The notes under the pieces are model-generated. The model was not told the DNA's origin and did not search any database. It was given only the letters and a program-made list of their open reading frames with translations. 64,000 nt of DNA from NCBI RefSeq assembly GCF_000376265.1, contig NZ_AQWU01000073.1, positions 35,375 to 99,374 on the forward strand, read 5' to 3'. Of the stretch, positions 47,478-62,252 are shown one piece after another. How positions within the stretch are numbered: the first letter of the stretch is position 1; every line of letters begins with the position of its first letter. A program made the position numbers and the translations under genes. The stretch comes from Thermus igniterrae ATCC 700962 (GTDB taxonomy: Bacteria > Deinococcota > Deinococci > Deinococcales > Thermaceae).

Positions 47478-48797
47478 ATGGACCTGAAAGCCCTTCACAA
47501 AAGGCACGTCCTCACCCCCTGGGTGGCCCAGGCCCCCCTGGACCCCCCGATGGTGGTCCGCGGGGAGGGGGTCTGGCTCTACGACCAGGAGGGGCGCCGC
47601 TACCTGGACCTTTCCGCCGGCCTGGTGGCGGTGAACCTGGGCCACGCCCACCCCCGCATGGTGCGGGCCATCGCCGAGCAGGCGGGGGTGTTGGCCTACG
47701 CCGCCCCCAGCCTCTTCCACGACAAGCGGGCCCTTTTGGCCAAGGCCCTTTCCGACATCTCCCCTTGGCCTGAGGGGGGACGGGTGTTCTTCACCCCCTC
47801 GGGGGCGGAGGCCAACGAGGATGCCCTCAAGTTCGTCCGCCACCTGACGGGCCGCCCCAAGGTCCTGGCCGCCTACCGTTCCTTCCACGGAGGCACCCAC
47901 GGGGCCGCGGCCCTCACCGGGGAGAACCGTCGCTGGCCCGCGGAGCCGGCCATCCCCGGGGTGGTGCACTTCTTCGCCCCTTACCCCTACCGCAGCCCCT
48001 TCTACACGGAAGACCCAAAGGAGGAGGCCCGCCGGGCCCTGGAGCACCTGGAAAGGGTTCTCCTCCACGAGGACCCCAGGCGGGTGGCCGCCATCTTCCT
48101 GGAGCCCGTGGTGGGGTCCAACGGGGTGATCCTCTATCCGGAGGGCTACCTGGAGGGGGTGCGGGCCCTCTGCGACCGCCACGGCATCCTCCTGGTCTTT
48201 GACGAGGTGATGACCGGCTTTGGCCGGGTGGGGGCCGCTTTCGCTGCGGAGCGCTTCGGCGTGGTGCCCGACCTCATCACCTTCGCCAAGGGGGTGACCT
48301 CGGCCTACGTGCCCCTGGGCGGGGTCCTGGTGCGGGAGGGTCTGGCCCGGCACTTTGACGAAACCCCCCTGCCCACCGGCCACACCTACTCGGGCCACCC
48401 CCTGGCGGTGGCCGCGGGGCTTGCCGCCCTTAGGACCTACCAGGAGGAGGGGATTTTCGCCCGGGTCCGGGCCATGGAGGGCTTCTTCCTGGAGGCCTTG
48501 AAGGACCTGGCCCGGCACCACCCCCTCATCGGGGACGTGCGGGGCCTGGGCGCCTTCTACGCCCTGGAGCTGGTCCGGGACCGGGAGACCAAGGAACCCC
48601 TTTCCCCCTGGCACGGGCCCTTCAGCCCCCCCATGGCCGCCCTGCTCAAGGCCCTTCTCCAGGAAGGGGTTTACCTTTTGGCCAAGCACAACATCCTGGT
48701 GGTGGCCCCGCCCCTCACCATCGCCGAGGCGGAGTTTCTGGAGGGCCTGGAGCGCCTCTCCCGCGCCCTGAGGCGGGTGGAGGTGGAGGCCCTCTAG
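47478..48797 (+). CDS. Class III aminotransferase (omega-amino acid:pyruvate type)
   Basis: This 439-aa PLP enzyme has VWLYDQEGRRYLDLSAGLVAVNLGHAHP, SGAEANEDALKF, FHGGTHGAAALTGENRRW and LVFDEVMTGFGRVG, with the PLP lysine in LITFAKGVTSAYVPLGG. The sequence is nearer to taurine/beta-alanine:pyruvate aminotransferases than to GabT. It is divergent from znuA and followed by a PF09818 ATPase that has its own promoter. Substrate is not fixed by the sequence; an amine such as beta-alanine, taurine or a polyamine product is likely. It is a third class III aminotransferase in 11 kb. Confidence 0.87.
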   Translation: MDLKALHKRHVLTPWVAQAPLDPPMVVRGEGVWLYDQEGRRYLDLSAGLVAVNLGHAHPRMVRAIAEQAGVLAYAAPSLFHDKRALLAKALSDISPWPEGGRVFFTPSGAEANEDALKFVRHLTGRPKVLAAYRSFHGGTHGAAALTGENRRWPAEPAIPGVVHFFAPYPYRSPFYTEDPKEEARRALEHLERVLLHEDPRRVAAIFLEPVVGSNGVILYPEGYLEGVRALCDRHGILLVFDEVMTGFGRVGAAFAAERFGVVPDLITFAKGVTSAYVPLGGVLVREGLARHFDETPLPTGHTYSGHPLAVAAGLAALRTYQEEGIFARVRAMEGFFLEALKDLARHHPLIGDVRGLGAFYALELVRDRETKEPLSPWHGPFSPPMAALLKALLQEGVYLLAKHNILVVAPPLTIAEAEFLEGLERLSRALRRVEVEAL

Positions 48798-48829: not shown

Positions 48830-50506
48830 GTGCGTTCGCTGTCCGACCTCCTTGACAAGCTGGCAACCCTCGAGGGCAAGCCCTATCCCTTCTACAAGGA
48901 CCTGAAGGGCACCTGGCAGGGGGAGGGATTTGTCCTGAGGTTCGTCCACGTGCAGGGGGACCCCTTCGCCGCCCCCAGCATCCTGGAGGTCCGCTACCCT
49001 CCTTCGGCCCTCTTAGGGCTTAGGGTCTACACCCGCCCCGAGGGCCGGGTGGCGGTGGAGGACTTCCTCCTGAGGAGCCTCAAGGCCCGCCTCCGCCACC
49101 TTCCCTCCGTGGGGGGAAGCGGCCACTCCGGCCAGGTGCGGGTGGAGGTGGAAAGCCCCAAGGTGCTGAAGCGGGCCGGGGCCCACCTCTCCCCGGGGGG
49201 GCTTTTCCTGAGGCTCCGCCTGGGCCTGCCCGCGGTGGGAAGGCGCATCCTGGGCAAGGAGGCCAGGGGGCTTTTCCAGGCCCTGCTGCGGCACCTTCGG
49301 GACTTCCTCCCCGAACTGGACCAGCAGGCCCTTCTCCGCCACGTGCGCCAGGTGGAGGACTTCGCCCACATCCAGGAGCGCCTGGAGGCCCAGGGCCTGG
49401 TGGCCTTCGTGGGGGAGGGGAGCCTCCTTCCCCGGGAGAGCGGGGTGAGCCAGAGGCCCCTGCGGGGGGCCATCCCCTTCCAAAGCCCCCCCTCCTTGCG
49501 GGTGGGCTTCCGGGTGCCCCACGCCGGGGAGGTTTGGGGCATGGGGCTTCCCCAAGGGCTCACCCTGATCACCGGGGGCGGGTTCCACGGCAAGACCACC
49601 CTCCTGGAGGCCCTGGTCCACGGGGTCCATCCCCACGTACCCGGGGATGGGCGGGAGTGGGTGGTCACCCATCCCCTGGCCCAGCGGGTGCAGTCGGAGG
49701 ACGGCCGGAGCGTCAGGGGGGTGGACCTGCGCCCCTTTGTCCACGGCCTGCCCCTGGGCCAGAGCACCGCCTTCTTCTCCACCGAGGACGCCTCGGGCTC
49801 CACCAGCCTGGCGGCGGCCATCCTCGAGGCGTTGGAACTAGGGGCCCGGGTCCTCTTTCTGGACGAGGACACCTCCGCCACCAACCTCCTGGTGCGGGAC
49901 GCCCGCATGCAGGCCCTGGTGCGCCAGGAGACCCTCACCCCCCTCCTGGACCGGGTGGGGGACCTCAAGGCCCTGGGGGTGAGCCTGGTCCTGGTGGTGG
50001 GCGGGGTGGGAGACTACCTGGACCTGGCGGACACCGTGGTCCTCCTGGAGGCCTACCGCCCCCGCGAGGCCACCCAGGAGGCGAGGCGGGTGGCCCAAAG
50101 CCACCCCACGGGCCGGGTCTTCGGCGAGCCCCAGCATCCCCTGATCCTCCGCTCCCGGGCCCCCTTGCCCGAGAGCTTTGACCCCAGGCGGGGCCGCAAG
50201 GCCCGGGTGCGGGGACGGGGCCTCCGGGAGCTCCTCTATGGGGAGGAGGTGGTGGACCTCTCAGCCCTGGACCTCTTTGAGAACGCCCAGGTGCGGACCA
50301 TCGGCGCCCTGTTTCGCCGCCTCCAGAACCTGGCCGATGGCCAGACCCCCCTCCGTGCCCTGGTGGAGGGCCTCCTCGCCGCCGAACCCTTTCCCGACCT
50401 CTTCCCCCTGGAGGAGGCGCCCGAGCTGGCCTGGGTCCGCCCCCTGGAGCTGGGGGCGGCGGCCAACCGGCTCAGGGCCTTGGAGGTGCGGCAGGTGGGC
50501 CCGTAG
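48830..50506 (+). CDS. Predicted ABC-class P-loop ATPase (PF09818 family)
   Basis: 558 aa. An N-terminal region of about 240 residues is followed by the ATPase core: Walker A GGGFHGKTTLLEAL near 248, STEDASGSTSLAAAILEALELG near 320 as the ABC-type signature, and Walker B VLFLDEDTSATNLLVRDARM near 340, then SLVLVVGGVGDYLDLADTVVLLEAY. This matches the uncharacterised bacterial ATPase family whose trypanosome relative (MRB1590) binds RNA. No membrane segments are present. The start is GTG on a leaderless promoter. Neighbours give no clear hint; nucleic-acid work is the most likely role by family. Confidence 0.85.
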   Translation: MRSLSDLLDKLATLEGKPYPFYKDLKGTWQGEGFVLRFVHVQGDPFAAPSILEVRYPPSALLGLRVYTRPEGRVAVEDFLLRSLKARLRHLPSVGGSGHSGQVRVEVESPKVLKRAGAHLSPGGLFLRLRLGLPAVGRRILGKEARGLFQALLRHLRDFLPELDQQALLRHVRQVEDFAHIQERLEAQGLVAFVGEGSLLPRESGVSQRPLRGAIPFQSPPSLRVGFRVPHAGEVWGMGLPQGLTLITGGGFHGKTTLLEALVHGVHPHVPGDGREWVVTHPLAQRVQSEDGRSVRGVDLRPFVHGLPLGQSTAFFSTEDASGSTSLAAAILEALELGARVLFLDEDTSATNLLVRDARMQALVRQETLTPLLDRVGDLKALGVSLVLVVGGVGDYLDLADTVVLLEAYRPREATQEARRVAQSHPTGRVFGEPQHPLILRSRAPLPESFDPRRGRKARVRGRGLRELLYGEEVVDLSALDLFENAQVRTIGALFRRLQNLADGQTPLRALVEGLLAAEPFPDLFPLEEAPELAWVRPLELGAAANRLRALEVRQVGP

Positions 50507-50523
50507 CATGGGGGTGTAGACCC

Positions 50524-51906
50524 ATGGGCCTCCCCCTGGAGGATCTGCTGGCCCTGCCCTCCCTGGCGCGGGCCCGCCTGCTGGCGGGCGATGCGCGGCG
50601 CCCGGTCTCCTGGGTCCACGTGGTGGACCTGCCAGAGCCTGCTCCCTGGGTGCGGCCGGGCCAGCTCCTCCTCTCCACGGGTTATGCCTGGCCTCGGGAG
50701 GAGGAGGCCCTGCGGCGCTTTGCCCAGGCCCTGGCCGCCCGGGAGCCCGCCGGGGTGGCCCTGGCGGTTCCCCAGTTCTTCGCCCATTTTCCCCAGGCGG
50801 CCCTCGAGGTCCTGGGCCAAAGGGGGGTGGCCGTCTTGGAGCTTCCCTGGGAGGTGCCCTTTGCCCAGGTGACCGAGGAGGTGCTCAAGCGGCTTCTGGC
50901 CCGGCAGCTGGAGGTCCAGGAAAGGGTCCAGACCCTGCACCGGGCCCTGATGCAGGCGGTCCTACGCCGGGAGGACATGGCGGCCTTCCTGGGGCGGCTT
51001 TCCCAACTCCTCGGGCGCCCGGTGGCCCTGGCCGAGGTCCCAAGGGGCTTCGCCGTTCCCGTGCCCTTGGGCAGGGGTCTGGGGGGATACCTGGCCCTGG
51101 AGGGGGAGGCCGATGAGGTGGAGAGGCAGGCCCTGGAGAACGCGGCCTTGGTGGCCGGGCTGATCCTCTCCCACCAGCGGGCCTTGGCGGAGCAGGAGGC
51201 CAGGCTGGGGTATGCCTTCTTGGATGCCCTTTTGGAGGGGCGGCGGGAGGCCTTGAACCCCGAGCGGGCGCGGGCTTTTGGCCTGGACCTTTCCCGGCGG
51301 TACCGGCTTGGGGTCCTCCTGTTGCCCCTGCCCTTGCCCCTCACGGAAAGGGGGTTCCAGGAGCGGGAACGGGTGGTGGGGGAGGTGCGGGGCCTCCTGC
51401 GGCGCAAGGGGGCCTGCGGGGTCCTCTCGGTGAGCCTCAACCAGGTGCGCTTCCTCCTGCCCGAGGCCCTGGACCCCGGGGCCTTCTGGCGGGAGCTTGG
51501 CCTAGCCTTTCCCCTTTACCTTTCCCGGCCCAAGGCTCCCGGGGCTCTGGGAGAGGCTCTGCCCGAGGTAGAGCGGCTTTTCTCCTTTGCCGAGCCCGGG
51601 GTTTACCTCTATGAGGCCCACCTGGTGCCCCGCCTCCTCCTGGGGGACCTCGAGGCCCGCCAGGAACTCCTCGCCTGGCTCGCCCCCTTGCGCCCCGCCG
51701 AGCGCCAGGCCCTTTGGGCCTGGGTTCAGGCTGGTTTCCGCTACAAGGAAGCGGCCCGCGCCCTGGGGGTGCACCTCAACACCCTCCGCTACCGCCTGCG
51801 CCGGGTGGAGGCCAGGCTGGGGGTGGCCTTGGACCGCCCCGAGGACCGCTTCCAGCTGGAGCTGGCCGCGCGCATCTGGTCATTGAACGACAAAAAAGGG
51901 GGTTAG
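50524..51906 (+). CDS. PucR-family transcriptional regulator
   Basis: 460 aa. The N-terminal PucR domain has RPVSWVHVVDLPEPAPWVRPGQLLLSTGYAW, where an effector is thought to bind. A central GGDEF-like/GAF-like linker follows, and a C-terminal helix-turn-helix has GFRYKEAARALGVHLNTLRYRLRRVEARLGV, the HTH_30 signature. TAGCAT (50504-50509) is a possible -10. It is 68 bp upstream of the gabT-potABCD cluster on the same strand, so it is probably the local regulator. In other bacteria PucR relatives control purine, GABA or amine catabolism. Confidence 0.9.
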   Translation: MGLPLEDLLALPSLARARLLAGDARRPVSWVHVVDLPEPAPWVRPGQLLLSTGYAWPREEEALRRFAQALAAREPAGVALAVPQFFAHFPQAALEVLGQRGVAVLELPWEVPFAQVTEEVLKRLLARQLEVQERVQTLHRALMQAVLRREDMAAFLGRLSQLLGRPVALAEVPRGFAVPVPLGRGLGGYLALEGEADEVERQALENAALVAGLILSHQRALAEQEARLGYAFLDALLEGRREALNPERARAFGLDLSRRYRLGVLLLPLPLPLTERGFQERERVVGEVRGLLRRKGACGVLSVSLNQVRFLLPEALDPGAFWRELGLAFPLYLSRPKAPGALGEALPEVERLFSFAEPGVYLYEAHLVPRLLLGDLEARQELLAWLAPLRPAERQALWAWVQAGFRYKEAARALGVHLNTLRYRLRRVEARLGVALDRPEDRFQLELAARIWSLNDKKGG

Positions 51907-51925
51907 ATTTTGTCTTTTTGGGCCG

Positions 51926-51963
51926 TTGTTCCCGGCCCTCCTGGGGCCTAACCTCTTAGGTTA
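51926..51963 (+). promoter_or_regulatory. Candidate promoter and operator of the amine cluster
   Basis: TTGTTC (51926-51931) and TAACCT (51949-51954) are 17 bp apart. The -10 is the left arm of a perfect palindrome TAACCT-CTT-AGGTTA (51949-51963), which ends directly at the AAAGGAGG ribosome-binding site. A regulator such as the PucR protein could act here. Confidence 0.55.
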
Positions 51964-51974
51964 AAGGAGGCAGC

Positions 51975-53288
51975 GTGGCCCTAGTGGAGTCGCGGAACCA
52001 GGCCCTTTGGCAGTTGCGGGAGCGGGTCGTCCCCCGGGGGGTGGCCCAGGCCCATCCGGTTTTCATCGCCCGGGCCGAGGGGGCCCGCCTCTGGGACGTG
52101 GATGGGAAGGAGTACCTGGACTTCGCCGGGGGCATCGGGGTGATGAACGTGGGCCACGGTCACCCCCGGGTGCTCCAGGCGGTGCGGGCCCAGCTGGAGC
52201 GCTTCACCCACCTCTGCTTCCAGGTCACCCCCTACGAACCCTACGTGCGCTTGGCCGAGCGGTTGGCCGCTTTGGCCCCTGGGGACTTTCCCAAGAAGGC
52301 CCTCTTCCTCACCACCGGGGCGGAGGCGGTGGAGAATGCGGTCAAGATCGCCCGGGCCTTCACCGGCCGCCCGGCCATCGTGGCCCTCACCCACAGCTTC
52401 CACGGCCGTACCCTCCTGGGGATGTCCCTCACGGGCAAGGCCAGCTACTACAAGCAGAACTTCGGCCCCTTCGCCCCGGAGGTGTACCACGCTCCCGTGC
52501 CCTACCCCTACCGGGGCTTTACCGAGGAGGCGGCCTTGGAGGGTCTGGCGGAGCTTTTCCGGACCCAGGTGGATCCCGAGCGGGTGGCGGCCCTGATCCT
52601 GGAGCCGGTTCTCGGGGAGGGGGGGTTTATCCCCCTTTCCCCCACCTACCTGAAGGCGGTACGGGCCCTCACGGAGGCCCACGGTATCCTCCTCATCGCC
52701 GATGAGATCCAGTCGGGCTTTGGCCGCACGGGCCGCATGTGGGCCGTGGAGCATGCCGGCGTGGTTCCCGATCTCCTGACCTTTGCCAAGAGCGTGGCCG
52801 CAGGCCTTCCCCTCTCTGGGGTGGTGGGCCGGGCCGAGGTCATGGACGCCCCGCGGCCGGGGGGGCTTGGGGGCACCTACGCCGGCAACCCCCTGGCCTG
52901 TGCCGCGGGCCTAGCGGTGCTGGACGTTTTTCGGGAGGACGCCCTGCTGGAGCGGGCCCAGGCCCTGGGGGAGACCCTGTGGCGGGGACTCCTTGCCCTG
53001 CAGGCCCGCTTCCCTCAGGTGGGTGAGGTGCGGGGCCTGGGCCCCATGGTGGCCATGGAGTTCGTCCGCGACCCCGGGAGCAAGGAGCCCGCTCCCCATC
53101 TGGCCCAGGGGGTCTTGGAGGCGGCCCGGGAGCGGGGGCTCATCCTTCTCAAGGCCGGGATGTACGGCAACGTGATCCGGGTGCTGGTGCCCCTTACCGC
53201 TTCCCCGGAGGAGGTGGCGGAGGGTCTGGGGCGCCTGGAGCAGGCCATGGAGGCTGCGCTCGTTGGGGAGGGGGGATGCTCTTCCTGA
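51975..53288 (+). CDS. gabT: 4-aminobutyrate aminotransferase (GabT-like)
   Basis: 437 aa, starting at GTG 51975 after AAAGGAGG. It follows E. coli GabT closely: THLCFQVTPYEPYVRLAERL, TTGAEAVENAVKIARA, FHGRTLLGMSLTGK, EPVLGEGGF, IADEIQSGFGRTG, PLP lysine in LTFAKSVAAGLPLSGV, and GGLGGTYAGNPLA. It transfers the amino group of GABA or similar omega-amino compounds to 2-oxoglutarate, giving a semialdehyde. It is first gene of a tight cluster; its last codons overlap the potA start. No succinate-semialdehyde dehydrogenase is in the cluster. Confidence 0.9.
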   Translation: MALVESRNQALWQLRERVVPRGVAQAHPVFIARAEGARLWDVDGKEYLDFAGGIGVMNVGHGHPRVLQAVRAQLERFTHLCFQVTPYEPYVRLAERLAALAPGDFPKKALFLTTGAEAVENAVKIARAFTGRPAIVALTHSFHGRTLLGMSLTGKASYYKQNFGPFAPEVYHAPVPYPYRGFTEEAALEGLAELFRTQVDPERVAALILEPVLGEGGFIPLSPTYLKAVRALTEAHGILLIADEIQSGFGRTGRMWAVEHAGVVPDLLTFAKSVAAGLPLSGVVGRAEVMDAPRPGGLGGTYAGNPLACAAGLAVLDVFREDALLERAQALGETLWRGLLALQARFPQVGEVRGLGPMVAMEFVRDPGSKEPAPHLAQGVLEAARERGLILLKAGMYGNVIRVLVPLTASPEEVAEGLGRLEQAMEAALVGEGGCSS

Positions 53289-54391
53289 AGAGGATCCGCA
53301 GGGGTGGCCTGGGGCGCAGGGGCGGGGCCTCGGGCGAGGGGAGCCTTCTCCGCTCGGACGGCGCAGAGGGCCTTTGGGCAACTTCAGGAGGGCTTGGCCT
53401 TCAGGGCATCACCAAGCGCTTCGGCGAGCTGGAGGTCCTCCGGGGGGTGTCCTTGGAGGTCCACCGGGGGGAGTTCTTTACCCTTTTGGGTCCTTCGGGG
53501 TGCGGCAAGACCACCCTGTTGCGCATCGTGGGGGGGTTTGAGGTGCCCGATGCGGGCCGGGTGGTGCTTGGCGGGAGGGACCTGACCCACCTCCCTGCCC
53601 ACCGGCGCCCGGTGAACACGGTGTTCCAGAACTACGCCCTCTTTCCCCACCTGACGGTTTACGAGAACGTGGCCTTCGGCCTGAGAAGCCGGGGTTTCCC
53701 CGAGGCCGAGGTCCGGGCCCGGGTGGAGTATGCCCTGGGGCTTTTGCACCTGGAAGGCCTTCTCCACCGCTATCCCCAGCAACTCTCCGGGGGGCAGAAG
53801 CAACGGGTGGCCCTGGCCCGGGCCCTGGTGAACGAGCCTGAGGTCCTCCTCCTGGACGAGCCCATGAGCGCCCTGGACGCCAAGTTGCGGGCGGAGGTGC
53901 AGGTGGAACTTCGGAACCTGCAACGGCGCCTGGGGGCCACCTTCATCCTGGTCACCCACGACCAGGAGGAGGCCATGGCGGTCTCTGACCGCATCGGGGT
54001 CATGGAGGGGGGAAGAATCCTCCAGGTGGGCACGCCAGAGGAGGTTTACGAGAGGCCCAGGACCCGCTTCGTGGCCGAGTTTCTGGGGGTGGCCAACCTC
54101 ATCCCCGCCCGAAGGGGCAAAGGGGGGGTGGAGACCCCCTGGGGTACCTTTGCCCTCGAGGTCCCCTGGGAGAGGGGCTTTCTGGCCATGCGGCCCGAGC
54201 GGGTGGAGGTTCACCTCCATGCCGTACCCGGCTCCGTCCCGGCCCGGGTGCGGCAGGTGATCTACCGTGGGGCCTACCTGGAAGCCTTTTTGGAACCTTC
54301 CCTGAGGGTGCGCACCGCCTTGCGCCTGAGCCCTGACCAGGAGATTTTCGTGCGCCTACCCGTGAAAGGCCTGGTGGTCCTCCATGAATAG
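53276..54391 (+). CDS. potA: Spermidine/putrescine ABC transporter ATP-binding protein
   Basis: 371 aa. Walker A GPSGCGKTT, Q loop FQNYALFPHLTV, signature LSGGQKQRVALARAL, Walker B VLLLDEPMSALD, switch VTHDQEEAM and a C-terminal TOBE-like domain (FLAMRPERVEV) identify a PotA-type importer ATPase. The first 42 residues are Gly/Arg-rich and precede the usual opening (LQGITKRFGELEVLRGVS). No in-frame ATG, GTG or TTG lies closer, so the ATG overlapping the gabT stop is kept. It may be a true extension or mark a changed 5' end. It energises PotB-PotC uptake. Confidence 0.92.
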   Translation: MLFLKRIRRGGLGRRGGASGEGSLLRSDGAEGLWATSGGLGLQGITKRFGELEVLRGVSLEVHRGEFFTLLGPSGCGKTTLLRIVGGFEVPDAGRVVLGGRDLTHLPAHRRPVNTVFQNYALFPHLTVYENVAFGLRSRGFPEAEVRARVEYALGLLHLEGLLHRYPQQLSGGQKQRVALARALVNEPEVLLLDEPMSALDAKLRAEVQVELRNLQRRLGATFILVTHDQEEAMAVSDRIGVMEGGRILQVGTPEEVYERPRTRFVAEFLGVANLIPARRGKGGVETPWGTFALEVPWERGFLAMRPERVEVHLHAVPGSVPARVRQVIYRGAYLEAFLEPSLRVRTALRLSPDQEIFVRLPVKGLVVLHE

Positions 54392-55289
54392 GCTCCTGGT
54401 CTGGTACGGGGAGCTGACCACGGCCCCGAGCCTCTTCCTGAGGGGACTCCTTCTGGTCCTCCCGGGGATGGTTTGGCTCCTGGCCTTTTTGGTTCTTCCG
54501 GGCCTTGTCCTCCTGCCCCTCTCCTTTGCCGAGAGGGGGGCCTTTGGCGAGGTGGTCTGGACGTTTTCCTGGGAGAACTACCGCCGGCTTCTGGGGTTTG
54601 GCGTACTGGGCTATAGCCCCGACAACCTCCTGGCCCTCCTGCGCACCCTGTGGGTGGCCCTGGTCACCACCCTGATCTGCCTGCTCCTGGCCTATCCCAT
54701 CGCCTTCTTCATCCGTTCCAAGCCTCGCGCCCAGCGCTACCTGTGGCTGTCTTTGGTCCTGATTCCTTTCTGGACCAACATCGTCATCCGCACCTACGCT
54801 TGGCAGCTCCTCCTGGCCCCGGAGATGCCCTTTGCCCGGCTGGCCTCGGCCTTGGGCCTCCTGGAGCCCGGAATGGCCCTTTTCCCCAGCACCCTGGCGG
54901 TGTACGTAGGCATGGTGAGCGCCTTCTTGCCCTTCATGGTTCTGCCCCTCTACTCCAGCGTGGAGCGGCTGGACGAAAGCCTCCTGGAGGCGGTGCGGGA
55001 CCTCTATGGGGGGCCCTGGCGCGTCTTCCTCCACGGGGTGTTGCCCCAGACCCTGCCCGGCCTGACCGTGGGGGTGATCCTCACCTTCGTCCCCGCCATG
55101 GGCATGTTCGTGGTGCCCGACCTCTTGGGAGGGGCCAAGCACCTCTTGGTGGGGAACCTCATCCAGCAGGCCTTTTACACCATGCGGGACTGGCCTTATG
55201 GGGCGGCCCTGAGCCTGGTCTTGGTCCTCCTCACCCTTTTGGCCCTGCGCCTCTACCGCCGCCACGGGAAGGAGGTGGAGCTGGCGTGA
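54384..55289 (+). CDS. potB: Polyamine ABC transporter permease PotB
   Basis: 301 aa with about six transmembrane helices. The ATPase-contact loop ERLDESLLEAVRDLYGGPWRVFLHGVLPQTLPGL carries the EAA motif. LIPFWTNIVIRTYAW and PALGMFVVPDLLGG-like text (VPAMGMFVVPDLLGGAK) are typical of PotB. It overlaps potA by 8 bp and potC by 4 bp, so translation is coupled. It forms a heterodimer with PotC. Confidence 0.93.
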   Translation: MNRLLVWYGELTTAPSLFLRGLLLVLPGMVWLLAFLVLPGLVLLPLSFAERGAFGEVVWTFSWENYRRLLGFGVLGYSPDNLLALLRTLWVALVTTLICLLLAYPIAFFIRSKPRAQRYLWLSLVLIPFWTNIVIRTYAWQLLLAPEMPFARLASALGLLEPGMALFPSTLAVYVGMVSAFLPFMVLPLYSSVERLDESLLEAVRDLYGGPWRVFLHGVLPQTLPGLTVGVILTFVPAMGMFVVPDLLGGAKHLLVGNLIQQAFYTMRDWPYGAALSLVLVLLTLLALRLYRRHGKEVELA

Positions 55290-56077
55290 GGGTGTCCTGG
55301 ATGACCCGCGCGGTGGCTCTCTCGGCCCTGGCCTTGTTGTACCTCCCCATGCTGGCGGTGGCCCTCTTCTCCCTGAACCGCACCCGGCACGGCCTGGGCT
55401 GGGGCGGCTTCACCTGGGAGTGGTACCTGCGCCTCTTGCAGAACGAGGCCGTCCTCGAGGCCACCCGCAACACCTTTCTCCTCGCCCTCCTTTCCACGCT
55501 CCTGGCCACCCTGCTGGGCACCCTTTTGGCCCTGGGCCTGGAGCGCCACCCCTTTGGCCGGCGCTTCCGGGGCTTTTTGGAGACCCTGCTCTACCTGCCC
55601 GTGGTCACCCCGGACCTGATCCTGGCCGCGGCCTTGGTGGTGGCCTTCGGCTTCCTGCGCCAGGCCTTCAGCCTCTTTGAGCCCGGGCTTCCTGCCATGG
55701 TGGTGGGGCACGTGACCTTCCAGGTGGCCTTCGTGGCCCTGGTGGTCATGAGCCGCTTGCAGGGCCTGCCCCGGGAGCTGGACGAGGCTGCCCGCGACCT
55801 CTACGCCACCTATCCCGTCTACCTGCGCCGGGTGCTCCTGCCCCTTCTGACCCCGGGTATCGTGGCCGGGGCCATGCTGGCCTTCACCCTCTCCCTGGAC
55901 GATTTCGTCATCAGCTTCTTCACCGCCGGGCCCACCAGCCAGACCCTTCCCCTCCTCATCTACGCCTCTGCCCGGCGGGGCGTCACCCCGGAGATCCATG
56001 CGGTTTCCACCCTGATCTTCCTCCTCACCGTGTTGGCGGTGCTGGGCGGGGAACGGCTTACCAGGAGGTCGGTATGA
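55286..56077 (+). CDS. potC: Polyamine ABC transporter permease PotC
   Basis: 263 aa with about six transmembrane helices. The EAA loop is RLQGLPRELDEAARDLYATYPVYLRRVLLPLLTPG, and LAFTLSLDDFVISFFTAGP is the PotC signature. GTG 55286 is chosen because GGAGGTG lies 8 nt upstream and its TGA overlap with potB fits coupling; ATG 55301 is an alternative. It overlaps potD by 4 bp. Confidence 0.92.
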   Translation: MRVSWMTRAVALSALALLYLPMLAVALFSLNRTRHGLGWGGFTWEWYLRLLQNEAVLEATRNTFLLALLSTLLATLLGTLLALGLERHPFGRRFRGFLETLLYLPVVTPDLILAAALVVAFGFLRQAFSLFEPGLPAMVVGHVTFQVAFVALVVMSRLQGLPRELDEAARDLYATYPVYLRRVLLPLLTPGIVAGAMLAFTLSLDDFVISFFTAGPTSQTLPLLIYASARRGVTPEIHAVSTLIFLLTVLAVLGGERLTRRSV

Positions 56078-57093
56078 GGATACTGGCGATGTTGGTGGTG
56101 TTTTTGGCCCTGGGGCTGGCCCAGAAGGAGCTAAGGCTTTTCATCTGGTCGGAGTACATAGACCCCGCCATCCTCGAGGCCTTCACCAAGCAGTACGGCC
56201 ACAAGGTGCGGGTGGACCTCTACGAGTCCAACGAGGAGATGATCGCCAAGCTCCAGGCGGGGGGGGTGAGCCAGTACGACCTCATCTTCCCCTCGGACTT
56301 CTACGTCCCCTCCCTCATCCAGCTCCGGCTGGTCCAGCCCCTGGACCACGCCAAGATTCCCAACCTCAAGAACCTGGACGACAAGTTCAAAAACCCCCCC
56401 TTTGACCCGGGCAACCGCTACTCCGCCGCCTACCAGTGGGGGACCACGGGCATCGTCTACCGCAAGGACCGGGTGGCCAAGCCGGAAAGCTGGGGGGTTC
56501 TCTTCCAGGAGCCTAAGGCCCCCTTCGTCCTCATGGACTCCTCCCGGGAGATGCTGGGGAATGCCCTCAAGTACCTGGGCTACTCCGTGAACACCAAAAA
56601 TCCCAAGGAGGTGCAGCAGGCGGGGCAGCTCCTCCTGCAGGCCAAGCGGAGCCGCTACTTCCTGGGCTTTGAAGGGGGGGTGGGGGGCAAGAACCGGGTG
56701 GTGGCCGGGGCTGCTGCCTACGCCGTGGTCTACAACGGGGACGCCATGCGGGCGGCCGACGAGAACCCGGGCAAGGTGGACTTCGCCATCCCCAAGGAGG
56801 GGGCCACCCTCTGGGTAGACTCCATGATGATTCCGGCCAGAGCGCCCAATCCCGAGGCGGCCCACCGCTTCATCAACTTCATCCTGGACCCCAAGGTAGG
56901 GGCCCAGCTTTCCAACTACAACCGTTACGCCACGCCCAACAAGGCCGCCCTGCCCTTCGTTAACCCCGCGGACCGCAAGAACCCGGCCATCTACCCAAGC
57001 CCCGAGGCCATGCGGCGCCTGGAGTTCATCCTGGACCTGGGCAAGGACAACCGGATCTACGACGAGGTCTGGACCGCGGTGAAAAGCCGTTAG
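56074..57093 (+). CDS. potD: Polyamine-binding periplasmic protein PotD
   Basis: 339 aa with signal peptide LAMLVVFLALGLAQ. The mature start LRLFIWSEYIDPAILEAF and YDLIFPSDFYVPSLI, YQWGTTGIVYRKDRV, VYNGDAMRA and DSMMIPARAPNPEAAHRFINFILDP follow PotD/PotF, where acidic and aromatic residues clamp polyamines. Family members also bind related diamines or amino acids. Thermus makes unusual long polyamines, so the ligand may differ from putrescine or spermidine. It overlaps potC and precedes the second GabT-like gene by 7 bp. Confidence 0.92.
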   Translation: MRILAMLVVFLALGLAQKELRLFIWSEYIDPAILEAFTKQYGHKVRVDLYESNEEMIAKLQAGGVSQYDLIFPSDFYVPSLIQLRLVQPLDHAKIPNLKNLDDKFKNPPFDPGNRYSAAYQWGTTGIVYRKDRVAKPESWGVLFQEPKAPFVLMDSSREMLGNALKYLGYSVNTKNPKEVQQAGQLLLQAKRSRYFLGFEGGVGGKNRVVAGAAAYAVVYNGDAMRAADENPGKVDFAIPKEGATLWVDSMMIPARAPNPEAAHRFINFILDPKVGAQLSNYNRYATPNKAALPFVNPADRKNPAIYPSPEAMRRLEFILDLGKDNRIYDEVWTAVKSR

Positions 57094-57100
57094 GAGGCGT

Positions 57101-58444
57101 ATGGGTTACATCCAGCTTAGAACCGAGATTCCCGGGCCCAAAAGCCGGGAGCTTTTGGAAAGGAGGGCGCGGGCGGTTTCCCGGGGCCTGGCCCAGGCCA
57201 ACCCCATCGCTGTGGCCAGGGCCCACGGGGCCTTGGTGGAAGACGTGGACGGCAACCTCCTCGTGGATCTGGCGGGGGGCATCGGGGCCCTGGCGGTGGG
57301 GCACACCCCCGAGAGGGTGGTGGAGGCCATCCAGGCCCAAGCGGAGCGGCTCATCCACATGTGCGCCATCGTGGCCAACTACGAGCCCTACGTGGCCTTG
57401 GCCGAGGCCCTGAACGCCCTCTACCCGGGCCCTGGCCCGGCCAAGACCCTCCTGGCCAATGGGGGGGCGGAGGCGGTGGAGAACGCGGTGAAGCTGGCCC
57501 GGGCCTACACGGGGAGGGCGGCGGTGATGGTCTTTGAAGGGGCCTACCACGGCCGCACCAACCTCACCATGGCCATGACCTCCAAGTACGCCCTCTTCAA
57601 AAAGGGCTTTGGCCCCTTTGCCCCGGAGGTTTACCGCCTGCCCGTGCCCAACCTCTACCGTACCCCCCCGGGGATGACGGAAGAGGAGTACCTGGACTGG
57701 TCCCTCTGGAACCTGGAAAATGCCCTGGTGGCCCATATTGACGGCTCTGCCCTGGCGGCCATCGTTATAGAGCCGGTCCTGGGGGAAGGGGGGTTCATCC
57801 CCGTGCCCCACGCCTTCTTGCGCAAGCTCCGGGAGATCGCCGACCGCACTGGGGCTCTCCTTATCGCCGATGAGGTGCAGTCCGGTTCGGGGCGCACCGG
57901 CCGGATGTGGGCCATAGAGCATAGCGGGGTGGTGCCCGACCTCATCGTCTCCGCCAAGAGCCTGGGGGCGGGCATGCCCATCAGCGCGGTGACGGGAAGA
58001 GCGGAGGTGCTGGACGCTCCCCACGTGGGGGGGGTGGGGAGCACCTACGGCGGCAACCCCCTGGCGGCGGTGGCGGCCCTCGAGGCCCTCCGCATCCTGC
58101 GCTCCCCCGGCTTCATGGAACGGGCCTCCCTCATAGAGGCTACGGTGCGCCGGGTCTTTACCCCCCTCAAGGAGGCGGTCCCCGCCCTGGGGGATGTGCG
58201 GGGCCTGGGGGCCATGATGGCCTTGGAGTTCGTCAAGGACCCCAGGACCAAAGAGCCCTGGCCGGAGTTCGTCCTGGAGCTGGTCAGGCGCAACGCCGAG
58301 CGGGGCGTGATCACCATCCGTGCAGGCCTGTACTCCAACGCCCTCCGCTTCCTCCCACCCCTGGACATCCCCCTAGACATGCTGGAGGAGGCCCTTTCCG
58401 TGGTGGCCGAGAACATCCGGGAGGTGTATGCCAAGCTGGCCTGA
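57101..58444 (+). CDS. Second GabT-like class III aminotransferase
   Basis: 447 aa. Same family signatures as the gabT at 51975: VDLAGGIGALAVGHTPERVV, ANGGAEAVENAVKLARAYTGR, YHGRTNLTMAMTSK, EPVLGEGGF, IADEVQSGSGRTG, lysine in IVSAKSLGAGMPISAV and GGVGSTYGGNPLA. An insertion (PPGMTEEEYLDWSLWNLENAL) and other changes show that it is a distinct paralogue; it is probably for another omega-amino or diamine substrate. Some relatives in the wider family act as amino-acid racemases, which is possible here. AGGAGGCG precedes the ATG. It overlaps the acetyltransferase gene by 17 bp. Confidence 0.88.
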   Translation: MGYIQLRTEIPGPKSRELLERRARAVSRGLAQANPIAVARAHGALVEDVDGNLLVDLAGGIGALAVGHTPERVVEAIQAQAERLIHMCAIVANYEPYVALAEALNALYPGPGPAKTLLANGGAEAVENAVKLARAYTGRAAVMVFEGAYHGRTNLTMAMTSKYALFKKGFGPFAPEVYRLPVPNLYRTPPGMTEEEYLDWSLWNLENALVAHIDGSALAAIVIEPVLGEGGFIPVPHAFLRKLREIADRTGALLIADEVQSGSGRTGRMWAIEHSGVVPDLIVSAKSLGAGMPISAVTGRAEVLDAPHVGGVGSTYGGNPLAAVAALEALRILRSPGFMERASLIEATVRRVFTPLKEAVPALGDVRGLGAMMALEFVKDPRTKEPWPEFVLELVRRNAERGVITIRAGLYSNALRFLPPLDIPLDMLEEALSVVAENIREVYAKLA

Positions 58445-59096
58445 ACCCCTCTTCTGGTCCGAGGACGGGCGCTTTGCCGTGGTGCGCTCCCAGCCTTCCA
58501 TGGCGGAGGTCTTGGAGGAGATCCAGGAGAAAAGCTTCCCCACCCTTTCCAAGGAAGAGCGCATGACCCGGGAGCACTACCTTTCCCACATGCGCATCTT
58601 CCCCGAGGGACAGCATGCGGTGGTGGAGGTGGCCACGGGCAGGGTGGTGGCCTGCTCCACCGACTTTCGCACCCGCGTGGACTTCCACCACTACCAGCAC
58701 CGGTACATAGAGGCGGTGGCCGGGAACTGGCTTACCCGGCACGACCCCGAGGGGGACTGGCTCTACGGGGCGGACATCGGGGTCTTGCCCGAGTACCGGG
58801 GCCTTGGCCTCTCCCGCCTCCTTTACCAGGCCCGCCAGAATCTGGTGCGCCGTCTGGGCCTGAAGGGGCACGTGGCCGGGAGCATGCCCAAGGGATACCA
58901 CCGCCACGCCCGGGAGATGCCCATAGAGGAGTACGTGCACCGGGTGGTGCGGGGGGAGTTGCAAGACCCGGTGCTCTCCGTGCAGCTTAGGCGGGGCTAC
59001 CGGGTGTACGGCATCATCCCTGATTACCTGGAGGACCCTAGCTGCCTGAACTACGGGGTCTTTGTGGTCTGGCGCAACCCGGAGGTGGGTTGGTGA
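58428..59096 (+). CDS. GNAT-family N-acetyltransferase
   Basis: 222 aa. The acetyl-CoA-binding strand-loop is DIGVLPEYRGLGLSRLLYQARQNLVRRLGL, with the R-G-x-G-L form of motif A; a later YGIIPDYLEDPSCLNYGVFV strand completes the fold. Residues 25-60 form the variable substrate cap. It starts within the end of the upstream aminotransferase gene (17-bp overlap) and its stop overlaps the amidohydrolase start, so it belongs to the cluster. Polyamine or amino-acid acetylation is a natural guess. Confidence 0.82.
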   Translation: MPSWPEPLFWSEDGRFAVVRSQPSMAEVLEEIQEKSFPTLSKEERMTREHYLSHMRIFPEGQHAVVEVATGRVVACSTDFRTRVDFHHYQHRYIEAVAGNWLTRHDPEGDWLYGADIGVLPEYRGLGLSRLLYQARQNLVRRLGLKGHVAGSMPKGYHRHAREMPIEEYVHRVVRGELQDPVLSVQLRRGYRVYGIIPDYLEDPSCLNYGVFVVWRNPEVGW

Positions 59097-60562
59097 GGCG
59101 GGTGTCGGGTCGGGTCCTCGTGCCCGATGCCCTAGGCCGCTACCGCCCCTACCGCGCCCTTTGGGTGCGGGAGGGCCGGGTGGCGGGGCTGGAGCCGGGG
59201 GAGGGCAGGGGGGAGGTGGTCCTCCCGGGGTTCCACGATGCCCACGTGCACATCTGGAAGGTGGGCCAGCTCCTCACGGACCTCCTGGACCTGCGGGGGG
59301 TGCGCTCCCTGGAGGAGCTGGAGCGCATGCTGCGGGAGCGGGACCGGCTTCTTCCCCCGGGTACTTGGCTTCTCGGGCGGGGGTGGAACGAGGCCCTTCT
59401 GGGGGGCTGGCCCCACCGGGCCTTTCTGGACCGGGTGGTGCCGGGGCGGCCGGTCCTCCTCACCCGCACCTGCGCCCATATTCATGCGGTCAACTCCCAG
59501 GCCCTTTCCCTGGCGGGGATCGGCCCCGACACCCCAAGCCCCCCTGGGGGGGAGGTCCGCTTTGCCGAGGGGCTTTTGTTGGAGCGGGCTTACGGCCTAG
59601 TGGAGCGGGTTTTGCCCCGGCGCACGGTGGCCGACTACCGGCGGTATGTGCTGGCGGGAGCCAGGCACCTCCTGGCCCAGGGCATCACCTCGGCCCTCGA
59701 GGCCGGGGCCGACCCCGAGCTCCTAGAGGCCTACCGCTCCTTGGACCGGGAGGGCCTCCTGCCCCTCAGGGTCTCGGTGCTGGCCATCCGCCGCCCCGAC
59801 GGAGCAGAGACCACCTACCCTCTGCCCGAGCCCTACCGCTCCGAGCGGCTTTTGATCGCCGGGATCAAGCTCTTTGCCGATGGGGGCCTTTCCGGGGCTT
59901 CGGCGGCGGTGAGCCGCCCCTACCAGGGGGTGGGGGGGCTGGGGGTGTTGCGCCTCAGGGCCGAGGAGGTCTTTGAACTGGCCCTTGCGGCCCACCAGAG
60001 GGGCCTCTTCGTGGCCACCCACGCCATCGGGGATGTGGCCATAAGGGAGGTCCTCCGGGGCTACGCCCGGCTCTACCAGGAGGCCCCCAGGCCCATCCGC
60101 CATCGCCTGGAGCACTTTGGCCTTCCGGGTCCTAAGGAGCTGGCCCTGGCCCGGGCCCTGGGGGTGTGGGCGGTTCCCCAGCCCATCTTCCTCAAGGAGC
60201 TTCGGGAGAACTTCCTCCGCTACCTGCCCGAGGGCTTCCTCGCCCGTTGCTACAACCTTGGGCGCATGGAACGGGCCGGGCTGGCCCTGGCCTTTTCCTC
60301 GGATGCCCCGGTGGTGCAGGAGGTTTCCCCCCTGGCGGGGGCGGTGGCGGCCTCCCGGCTCCCCCTTTTGGGAAGAGGCCTCCCCCTGGAGCGGGCCCTT
60401 TTCCTCTACACTCAGCCTGAGGCCAGCGGCTTCCCGCCCATGCGCCTCTGGCCTGGGCACCCGGCAGATCTGGTGGTCTACTCGGCAGACCCCTTTACCC
60501 ACCCGGAAGAGGCGCGGGTGGTGCGCGTGGAGGTGGACGGTGTGGCGGTCTATACGGCTTGA
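59093..60562 (+). CDS. YtcJ-like metal-dependent amidohydrolase
   Basis: 489 aa. Metal-binding motifs of the amidohydrolase_3 group are seen: LPGFHDAHVHIWKVG near the start, ATHAIGDVAI, RHRLEHFGLP and AFSSDAPVV. The C-terminal composite domain ends LWPGHPADLVVYSADPF. GTG 59093 is preferred, with GGAGGTGG 4 nt upstream and a 4-bp overlap with the acetyltransferase stop. It probably hydrolyses an amide or N-acyl bond. Beside an acetyltransferase and transaminases it might deacylate a pathway intermediate; that is inference. Confidence 0.86.
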   Translation: MRRVSGRVLVPDALGRYRPYRALWVREGRVAGLEPGEGRGEVVLPGFHDAHVHIWKVGQLLTDLLDLRGVRSLEELERMLRERDRLLPPGTWLLGRGWNEALLGGWPHRAFLDRVVPGRPVLLTRTCAHIHAVNSQALSLAGIGPDTPSPPGGEVRFAEGLLLERAYGLVERVLPRRTVADYRRYVLAGARHLLAQGITSALEAGADPELLEAYRSLDREGLLPLRVSVLAIRRPDGAETTYPLPEPYRSERLLIAGIKLFADGGLSGASAAVSRPYQGVGGLGVLRLRAEEVFELALAAHQRGLFVATHAIGDVAIREVLRGYARLYQEAPRPIRHRLEHFGLPGPKELALARALGVWAVPQPIFLKELRENFLRYLPEGFLARCYNLGRMERAGLALAFSSDAPVVQEVSPLAGAVAASRLPLLGRGLPLERALFLYTQPEASGFPPMRLWPGHPADLVVYSADPFTHPEEARVVRVEVDGVAVYTA

Positions 60563-62252
60563 CCTGAAGGAGAAGAAGGCCTACTGGCAGGAGGTGTCCC
60601 CCGAGGAGGTGGCCATGGGCGGCCGCTACCGCACGGCCAAGCTCCTCCTGGAGGGGGAGGCCTACCGCTTTGACCCCCTGGCCCCGGAAAACCCCCTGGT
60701 CTTCGCCGTAGGCCCCCTGGCGGGCACGGGGTTTTCCAACGCCAACCGCACCAGCGTGGGCACCCGTAGCCCCCTGACCCTGGGCATCAAGGAGGCCAAT
60801 GGCGGTGGCACTTTCGGCTACGCCCTGGGGCAGATGCGGCTTTCCCACCTGGTGCTGGAGGGGCGGAGCCCGGAGTGGGTGGTCCTCCGCATCACCCGCA
60901 CGGGGGAGGTCTTCTTTGACCCTGCGGAGGGGCTTTTAGGCCTGGGGAACTTCCAGGCGGCAGAGCGGCTTTTCGCCGCCTACGGCCGGAGGATCGCCTT
61001 CGCCCTTCTGGGCCCCGTGGGGGAGTACGGGGGGCTTCTGGCCGGTATCGCCTTCTCCGACACCGATGGCCGCCCCTCCCGCCTGGCCGCCCGGGGGGGC
61101 GTGGGGGCGGTGATGGGGGCCAAGCGGGTCAAGGCCATCGTGCTGGAGGTGCCGGGCAAGGTGGAGGTGGCGGACAAGCCCAAGGTTCTGGAGGCCATCC
61201 GCCGCTACGCCCAGCTCCTGCGCGAGGACCCCCTGGTCATGCAGTTTTACAACGCCATCGGCACCATGGGCATGGCCGACTTCCAGAATGCCTTTGGAGG
61301 GCTTCCCGTGCGCAACTTCCGCGAGGGGCGCCTGGCGCCCGCGGAGGCCTTCCGCATGGGGGGGCAGTACATCGCCCCTCTCAACAAGGCCCGGGGGGGG
61401 AAGCACACCCACGCCTGCATGCCGGGGTGCGTGATCCAGTGCTCCAACGTCATCGTGGACGAGGGGGGCGAGGAGGTGGTCTCCCCCCTGGAGTACGAGA
61501 CCATTGGCCTTCTGGGCACCAACTGCGGCCTGCAGGACCCCGACCAGCTGGCCCGCCTTAACCGCCTGGCCAACGACCTGGGCATAGATACCATTGAGAC
61601 CGGGGCTAGCCTGGCCCTCTACATGGAAAAGGGCCTGGCCCCCTGGGGGGACTACGCCTTCATGGAGGCCAGGCTCCAGGCCCTCTACACCCCGGACGAG
61701 GAGGCCCGCCTCCTGGCCCAGGGCACGGCCCGGCTGGGGGAGGCCCTGGGAGTGGCCCGGGTTCCCGTGATCAAGCGCCAGGCCATCTCCGCCTACGACC
61801 CCCGGGTGGTGGAGGCCACGGGGGTCACCATGATGATCACCGCCCAGGGGGCGGACCACACCGCGGGCAACGCCCCCCGGCTGGAGACCCGGGCCATGGG
61901 GGTGGGGGAGGTCCTCGAGGCCAGCTACCAGGCCCAGGTGAACGCCGCCGCCAACGACGCCCTGGGCCTTTGCGTTTTCGGGGGAAGCGTCACCAACAAG
62001 CAGGTAGACTTCATCACCCAGAGCGTGAACGCCGCCTTGGGCACGGGCCTAACCCCGAGGTTCTGGACGGAGCTGGGGGAGGCGGTCTTGCGCCTGGAGC
62101 ACCGCTTCAACCACCTGGCCGGCTTCACCCACGAGGACGACCGCCTCCCCGCCTTCTTCTACCAGGAGCCCGTTCCCCCCAAGGGCTACACGGCCCGCTT
62201 CCGCCCCGAGGACCTCGCCCCCCTCTACGAGCGGCTCCACCAGGGGTCGTAG
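60540..62252 (+). CDS. aor: Aldehyde:ferredoxin oxidoreductase (AOR family, tungsten/molybdenum)
   Basis: 570 aa, starting at GTG 60540 with GGAGGTGG just upstream and a 23-bp overlap with the amidohydrolase gene. The N-terminal pterin domain has AVGPLAGTGFSNANRTSVGTRSPLT, and RLAARGGVGAVMGAKRVKAIVL is the AOR signature. The [4Fe-4S] ligands are C293, C297 and C301, spaced C-x3-C-x3-C rather than the C-x2-C-x3-C of Pyrococcus AOR, plus C329. Central motifs EYETIGLLGTNCGLQD and NRLANDLGIDTIETG are intact. It should oxidise aldehydes to acids and reduce ferredoxin. Its substrate is probably an aldehyde from the transaminases upstream. Confidence 0.9.
   Translation: MWRSIRLDLKEKKAYWQEVSPEEVAMGGRYRTAKLLLEGEAYRFDPLAPENPLVFAVGPLAGTGFSNANRTSVGTRSPLTLGIKEANGGGTFGYALGQMRLSHLVLEGRSPEWVVLRITRTGEVFFDPAEGLLGLGNFQAAERLFAAYGRRIAFALLGPVGEYGGLLAGIAFSDTDGRPSRLAARGGVGAVMGAKRVKAIVLEVPGKVEVADKPKVLEAIRRYAQLLREDPLVMQFYNAIGTMGMADFQNAFGGLPVRNFREGRLAPAEAFRMGGQYIAPLNKARGGKHTHACMPGCVIQCSNVIVDEGGEEVVSPLEYETIGLLGTNCGLQDPDQLARLNRLANDLGIDTIETGASLALYMEKGLAPWGDYAFMEARLQALYTPDEEARLLAQGTARLGEALGVARVPVIKRQAISAYDPRVVEATGVTMMITAQGADHTAGNAPRLETRAMGVGEVLEASYQAQVNAAANDALGLCVFGGSVTNKQVDFITQSVNAALGTGLTPRFWTELGEAVLRLEHRFNHLAGFTHEDDRLPAFFYQEPVPPKGYTARFRPEDLAPLYERLHQGS

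Follow-up and report, generated by a model that had tools for sequence, protein, structure and literature searches.

In the Puu pathway of Escherichia coli, the glutamine-synthetase-like enzyme PuuA (gamma-glutamylputrescine synthetase) puts a protecting group on putrescine, PuuC oxidises the aldehyde and PuuD takes the group off again. In this order of events one amino group is protected, the other end is oxidised, and 4-aminobutyrate (GABA) is released by deprotection and then transaminated. Polyamine pathways are reviewed in PMC9397018, among them Puu and a bacterial spermidine acetylation pathway where protection of the polyamine depends on acyl-coenzyme A (acyl-CoA). GABA is also the substrate of the gabTDP genes of Corynebacterium glutamicum; according to PMC7652997, these are under the PucR-type regulator GabR, which adjoins the GABA transaminase, the set includes a permease and the aldehyde dehydrogenase GabD, and the last step is semialdehyde oxidation. 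Ferredoxin-linked oxidation of aldehydes in an aerobe is known from BmWOR clade 83 of the aldehyde:ferredoxin oxidoreductases (AOR), which carry AFOR domains and count Thermus among their holders (PMC9424855). The locus analysed here is a cluster of ten genes, PucR-GabT1-PotABCD-GabT2-GNAT-amidohydrolase-AOR, at positions 50524..62252 of a 64,000-nucleotide stretch of Thermus igniterrae ATCC 700962 (the window; G000:C73:35375-99374, in a genome of 2.2 Mb and 74 contigs). The nine genes before the AOR are called the block below; the cluster as a whole is a variant of the known polyamine/GABA catabolic clusters. The preferred reading, put forward tentatively as falling just short of an even chance, is that the ten genes form one PucR-controlled operon predicted to take a polyamine-type amine via GABA to succinate semialdehyde, and that this semialdehyde or an earlier aminoaldehyde is likely the substrate of the AOR.

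The sequence-only reading of the window had described ten same-strand genes with overlaps at almost every junction, and their coordinates and strand were borne out, as were their families by Pfam and NCBIfam. All ten open frames lie on the + strand: a PucR-type transcriptional regulator (50524..51906; PF07905 and HTH_30, found in 7/7 block-positive genomes), GabT1, a 4-aminobutyrate transaminase (51975..53288), a PotA-type ATP-binding cassette (ABC) ATPase (53276..54391), the PotB-type (54384..55289) and PotC-type (55286..56077) permeases, a PotD-type substrate-binding protein (56074..57093), GabT2, a class III omega-aminotransferase (57101..58444), a GNAT-fold protein (58428..59096), an Amidohydro_3 metal-dependent amidohydrolase (59093..60562) and the AOR (60540..62252). 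The junctions were measured in the seven GNAT-positive genomes of Thermus and its sister genus (G000, which is the window genome, G023, G028, G037, G040, G041 and G049). PotA-PotB overlap by 8 bp and PotB-PotC and PotC-PotD by 4 bp each in 7/7 genomes, GabT2-GNAT overlap by 17 bp in 6/7 (47 bp in G040, where the start is uncertain) and amidohydrolase-AOR by 23 bp in 6/7, the window included, and by 26 bp in the other. The GNAT-amidohydrolase overlap is 7 bp in the window if the amidohydrolase starts at TTG and 4 bp if it starts at the GTG at 59093, the start picked in 5/6 other genomes; across the seven it is 4 or 7 bp. Gaps separate PucR from GabT1 (68 bp in the window, 68-76 bp in all seven) and PotD from GabT2 (7 bp in the window, 2 to 9 bp over the seven). 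The GabT1-PotA junction ranges from the 13-bp overlap of the window to a gap of 123 bp, with a 2.8-kb insert in one genome, and because of this variability the overlap is doubtful and not meaningful; the other PotA proteins align only from residue 17 to 39 of the window frame, whose true start is probably further downstream. Thus, of the overlaps first listed (12, 8, 4, 4, 17, 4 and 23 bp), all agree except that between GabT1 and PotA. Elsewhere the overlaps are nearly constant across the seven genomes, beyond chance expectation.

The 68-bp spacer behind the regulator (51907..51974, + strand) is the likely operator/promoter of the operon. A candidate promoter had been proposed there, and a sigma-70 scan of 50300-62700 gave 0 sites (mean 0.7 in shuffles); what stands of the proposal is that a TTTGT/TTGT element and a TAnnnT box recur in the spacer of 7/7 aligned genomes (judged by eye, with no statistic), which makes one conserved control region plausible. 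No Rfam match was found. The regulator stands beside a GABA transaminase that scores above the curated cut-off, as in a GabR-GabT-GabD operon; the operon holds no succinate-semialdehyde dehydrogenase (SSADH) of family PF00171, the AOR being in that place, and 0/8 of the PF00171 matches of the genome lie within the window. Unlike gabR-gabTDP, the Thermus cluster has, besides the AOR in the last slot, a PotABCD importer, a second GabT, a GNAT and an amidohydrolase.

For transport and TRANSAMINASES, the top solved relatives of PotD are putrescine and spermidine binders (E values 1e-60 to 1e-37), and chain 4eq7, which we take to be the GABA binder of Agrobacterium, matches at only 5.6e-5. All four components are present, with a binding protein nearest PotD/PotF, and the polyamine-type importer first proposed was therefore upheld. 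At the positions that presumably contact polyamine in E. coli PotD, W34, E36, Y37, S83, E171, W255 and D257 are kept, and T35 is changed to S, D168 to S and W229 to Y. For the further idea that the substrate is an unusual long or branched Thermus polyamine no evidence was found, and relatives outside Thermus share the same core. The proposal of two GabT enzymes held in part: GabT1 reaches 552 bits against TIGR00700 (cut-off 506.65) and is nearest to chain 1sf2 (6e-145), presumably E. coli GabT, whereas GabT2, nearest to 3r4t (9e-119), presumably a mycobacterial GabT, stays below the cut-off at 484 bits.

We infer the whole order of the pathway steps, the reach being longest at the GNAT. PotABCD would import an amine such as putrescine and the GNAT would acylate one amino group, as a result of which, it is proposed, the aldehyde would be unable to cyclise; GabT2 would turn the free end into an aldehyde, the AOR would oxidise this acyl-protected aldehyde to the acid with ferredoxin and the amidohydrolase would free GABA, from which GabT1 would yield succinate semialdehyde; the AOR or another dehydrogenase would then make succinate. 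Relative to Puu, the GNAT would replace PuuA, the amidohydrolase PuuD and the AOR PuuC; the PuuA family was not found among the ten genes. The acyl-CoA-dependent protection of the spermidine acetylation pathway is predicted here too, with the difference that the predicted downstream genes would share one cluster. A complete acyl-protection route for polyamines, built from an atypical GNAT, a lineage-dependent amide hydrolase (the amidohydrolase, an AAT-type N-terminal-nucleophile amidase or a nitrilase-fold enzyme) and a tungsten-type AOR that replaces a nicotinamide adenine dinucleotide (phosphate) (NAD(P)) dehydrogenase in Thermus, must be called rather unlikely. The sequence-only reading knew of no described pathway with this composition, and the systems in the accessible parts of PMC7652997 and PMC9397018 indeed lack it. 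Among the matches listed for the open-access literature, nothing linked AOR to GABA or putrescine catabolism, nothing joined AOR, Thermus and polyamine, AOR and succinate semialdehyde came together only in one paper, on syngas co-culture, and nothing relevant concerned a GNAT acetyltransferase fused to a nitrilase.

The pairing of the GNAT with an amide hydrolase is what suggests a route of acylation, oxidation and deacylation, like Puu without PuuA. Synteny was counted over 32 loci with a GNAT of at least 54% identity, several of them cut by contig ends. The count excludes L032, which is the same genome as L057, repeats of genomes already covered (L034 to L037, L039, L042, L044), two genomes represented by no long region (G005, G052), short loci (L004 to L031, L084 to L087) and more distant relatives (L047 to L055, L107 to L113, L117, L119, L120). 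The amidohydrolase follows within 1.2 kb in 26/32 loci, PotD precedes in 23, GabT2 lies within 1.5 kb in 22, and GabT1 and PotB are found in 15 each; seven loci have an AOR after the GNAT and five an SSADH-like dehydrogenase. Deinococcales and two metagenome-assembled genomes of Micrococcales also have the core GabT2-GNAT-amidohydrolase. In the amidohydrolase, the pattern HxH, Lys, His, His, Asp, presumably the binuclear-metal ligands of Amidohydro_3 enzymes, is whole in 26 orthologues (candidate ligands H52, H54, K260, H311, H342 and D405, counted from the TTG at 59090; a position was listed as invariant when at least 97% identical in at least 80% of rows). Only two solved chains matched at an E value of 0.001, and each bears the name of an uncharacterised metal-dependent hydrolase. 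In f5, another family of the order, the enzyme beside the GNAT is an AAT-type acyltransferase/amidase (8/8 loci by clustering, 4/4 of those Pfam-tested), and in Aurantimonas, Jiella and Fulvimarina GNAT and a carbon-nitrogen hydrolase form one fused protein (4/4 tested of nine such distant loci). The amide hydrolase that usually accompanies the GNAT therefore comes from any of three unrelated families. A flavin amine oxidase is the neighbour of a second GNAT in 6/8 f5 loci (clustering; 3/3 Pfam-tested). Loci L107-L109, L112, L113 and L119, from the other family of the order, carry two GNAT copies, one by the AAT-type enzyme and one by the flavin amine oxidase.

The idea of acylation followed by deacylation is suggested by this pairing and not by the residues of the GNAT, which are not those of an ordinary N-acetyltransferase. 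Its fold is nearest to the CurA-type GNAT-like decarboxylases, the extended C-terminal part included. PMC3701320 gives CurA, GphF, SxtA and malonyl-CoA decarboxylase a His-Ser/Thr catalytic dyad; fold and C-terminal extension are common to these enzymes and the window GNAT, and the dyad is missing from the latter. In the family alignment, Gln stands in 55/61 sequences at the His and Ala or Gly in 58/61 at the Thr, with CurA numbering deduced from five residues in register at a single offset. The acyl-CoA motif (Q/R)xxGx(G/A) has R or Q in 61/61, G in 56/61 and, at its last position, Ser in 39, Ala in 15 and Gly in 7. The invariant Y113 and Y169 lie away from the canonical position of the Tyr general acid. 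An ordinary acetyltransferase was thus ruled out for lack of the key Tyr, and a decarboxylase of the malonyl-CoA type for lack of the dyad. Without the dyad and the usual Tyr, acylation is the weakest link of the pathway, and the earlier suggestion of an acylating step is not backed by the key residues of the GNAT. The family search returned 678 matches at an E value of 0.001 or better.

The AOR carries AFOR_N and AFOR_C and shares 83-87% identity with proteins assigned by name to several Thermus species. Its D-L-G-[IV]-D and N-D-x-L-G-L-C motifs are kept in 24/24 orthologues; these two presumed pterin motifs and the distal Cys, likewise kept in 24/24, align with 1aor, which we take to be the Pyrococcus furiosus AOR. 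The iron-sulfur motif is CX3CX3C in 24/24 orthologues and 118/120 listed relatives, instead of the CX2CX3C that, with the distal Cys, presumably supplies the ligands in P. furiosus; residues 293-301, mostly HACMPGCVIQCSN, form the signature of this subfamily. A tungsten-type, ferredoxin-dependent activity is predicted. Two further AOR genes occur in the genome, L001 (G000:C54), near Haloferax WOR83, and L002 (G000:C61), nearest 1aor. The C54 enzyme matches WOR83 at 9e-204, the window AOR matches it at only 2.7e-41, and the Thermus enzymes of clade 83 in PMC9424855 are therefore probably the C54 copy; the window AOR differs from that clade in this weak match and in its CX3CX3C motif.

The position of the AOR acquires meaning from the relatives. 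A PF00171 dehydrogenase homologue is the gene right after the amidohydrolase in Calidithermus (L033 and L034, 2/2 loci) and also in L043 and L114, which belong to other families of the order; in L115 the homologue lies about 1 kb further on. In Meiothermus-type clusters neither an AOR nor a dehydrogenase directly follows. The L033 enzyme has the SSADH profile TIGR01780 as its best match (572 bits, under the cut-off of 646, which is not decisive since the Calidithermus enzyme itself falls below it), and the best PF00171 enzyme of the window genome reaches 419 bits (six of eight own matches tested). Homologues of the L033 enzyme at 58% identity or more were found in 22/22 members of the family set outside Thermus and its sister genus and in 8/28 genomes of these two; the window genome has none, its best being 39%. 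Of the 27 Thermus genomes, 26 have an AOR orthologue (at least 80% identity), which is broken in two of them and split into two pieces in a third; the sister-genus genome has an orthologue as well, and the other 22 members gave no AOR match. This distribution, together with the AOR slot, supports a swap of the dehydrogenase for the AOR in the Thermus line, and an AOR in the SSADH-type slot of Calidithermus and some Deinococcales makes ferredoxin-linked semialdehyde oxidation plausible as judged from gene position.

The family set comprised 50 genomes, 27 of Thermus (the window genome included), one of the sister genus and 22 other members. GNAT orthologues occur in 26/50 (6/27 Thermus, the one sister-genus genome and 19/22 others), and the full order is found in 7/7 GNAT-positive Thermus and sister genomes, in G049 with two inserted genes. 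Restriction of the order to this strain had been named as a refutation; the same order is present in six further genomes, yet in only 6/27 Thermus, and is thus patchy. TIGR00700 is matched above cut-off in 29/50 genomes, the seven block-positive ones and 22/22 non-Thermus members, and in 0/21 block-less Thermus. Absence of the block in the 21 genomes was established genome-wide for the GNAT, PotD and the GABA transaminase and, for the other genes, in the stretch around the AOR in 19/21 (17 with an intact and two with a broken AOR; G035 and G042 apart). PotD paralogues at 43-46% remain in block-less genomes, where some polyamine uptake may therefore persist. Upstream of the site, a third class III aminotransferase (47478..48797, +; NF004718/PRK06062, 577 bits, cut-off 472) is paired with an ABC-class ATPase (48830..50506, +; PF09818, PF20446) in block-positive and block-less Thermus alike. 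Of the 17 intact AOR genes of block-less genomes, 11 follow this same ATPase and six lie elsewhere, five with an AMP-binding-enzyme/kinase/lactamase group (Pfam on one) and one with UvdE. In G027, one open frame (L099:10198-10929) directly upstream of the AOR joins the 5′ part of PucR to the 3′ part of the amidohydrolase, and G030 retains a relic of about 53 codons of the amidohydrolase end at the AOR junction; these relics show that at least these two genomes lost the block by deletion, and a gain by a few Thermus strains was ruled out. Eight of the 11 junctions at this site were read: two have clear relics, three retain no more than some 10 bases past the AOR overlap and three have no visible relic. 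Six changes in block presence are needed on each of two trees, that of the AOR (24 rows) and that of another transporter locus (28 rows), with at least four forced by well supported branches in each; the positive/negative sisters G040/G027 and G023/G024 have 100% bootstrap in both.

Enlarged versions of the block were also seen. In G049, of the sister genus, an aminobutyraldehyde dehydrogenase (NF010000, 771 bits, cut-off 615) and a class III transaminase (NF005453, 637 bits, cut-off 425) are inserted between GabT1 and PotA (L058:3814-6586). Meiothermus-type clusters (L066, L069-L072) hold a second PotD, a serine/threonine-dehydratase-like pyridoxal-phosphate enzyme and another transaminase, most of them also an oxidoreductase of the flavin adenine dinucleotide type and some an AAC(6′)-like GNAT (clustering; one member of each Pfam-tested).

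Several observations weigh against the operon reading. The amidohydrolase was not found near the GNAT in 6/32 loci (one at a contig end), GabT2 was not within 1.5 kb in 10/32, and a hydrolase fusion is absent from the distant second GNAT of both G001 and G002 (2/2). The substrate assignment of GabT2 is putative only. The eight aldehyde dehydrogenase matches of the genome (PF00171) might provide the enzyme that oxidises the semialdehyde instead, and 3/7 block-positive genomes also hold an SSADH homologue. The AOR is intact in 17/21 block-less Thermus; among the remaining four, the gene is split in two in G042 and broken in G032 and G038, and G035 has no match. The broken copies (L106:11178-12281 and L105:6226-6798) lie near glycerol kinase and glycerol-3-phosphate oxidase-like genes. 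Kept without the block, the AOR cannot serve this pathway alone, and since none of the 21 block-less genomes has a curated GABA transaminase it is not specific to GABA-derived semialdehyde. The median ratio of nonsynonymous to synonymous substitution (dN/dS) is 0.17 in block-less genomes (135 usable of 136 pairs) and 0.24 in block-positive ones (21 pairs), obtained by a simple counting method on genes rich in guanine and cytosine and from pairs that are not independent; the AOR is under purifying selection in block-less genomes and most likely handles aldehyde from at least one further source as well. All three Thermus with a broken or absent AOR have an SSADH homologue of at least 58%, versus 5/24 Thermus and sister genomes with an intact AOR, a comparison that leaves out G042 and holds only three independent losses, so that a paired test cannot reach significance. 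The claim that the AOR oxidises the pathway aldehyde therefore stands as to its slot and not as to a dedicated role. These data would also fit a general aldehyde-oxidising or detoxifying Thermus enzyme that merely shares site and transcript with the block, another dehydrogenase oxidising the semialdehyde, an explanation that is a serious possibility and still well below an even chance. It draws on the low dN/dS and changing neighbours of the AOR, on the scatter of the block over both trees and on the SSADH homologues that three block-positive genomes hold, of which one is a partial hit where a contig ends; yet in 7/7 block-positive genomes the amidohydrolase gene runs 23-26 bp into the AOR gene, the AOR occupies the aldehyde-dehydrogenase slot of some relatives, and 4/7, the window genome included, lack such a homologue.

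The GNAT raises a comparable doubt, because where canonical GNATs reportedly have Tyr and decarboxylases His, the Gln of the same 55/61 sequences leaves acetyl transfer unsecured. It may not be an acyltransferase at all, its role being other CoA-linked chemistry or acyl-CoA sensing, with an imported amide as the direct substrate of the amidohydrolase, a reading that we rate a good deal less probable than its opposite. Decarboxylation fits poorly with the lost dyad, the R-x-x-G-x-(S/A/G) motif is mostly retained, and the pairing with three amide-hydrolase families fits transfer of an acyl group and its later removal. It is far less probable that GABA or some other omega-amino acid is taken up in place of a polyamine, the two GabT enzymes acting on two such acids. 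Both transaminases are GABA-transaminase-like, and the PucR-type GabR of the gabTDP system (PMC7652997) lends this idea a precedent; however, PotD is much closer to polyamine binders than to the putative GABA binder, and the inserted aminobutyraldehyde dehydrogenase and the flavin amine oxidases of relatives point to a diamine.

If the operon reading is true, the acetylation-type polyamine route would gain its missing downstream genes, little-annotated GNAT proteins would become testable amine acyltransferases and a ferredoxin-linked enzyme would be seen to replace an NAD(P)-linked one inside a catabolic operon of an aerobe. Should the complete acyl-protection route hold, amine breakdown would feed reduced ferredoxin into an aerobic thermophile. 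The AOR that outlives its operon in block-less Thermus is a natural experiment on the role of this AOR subfamily.

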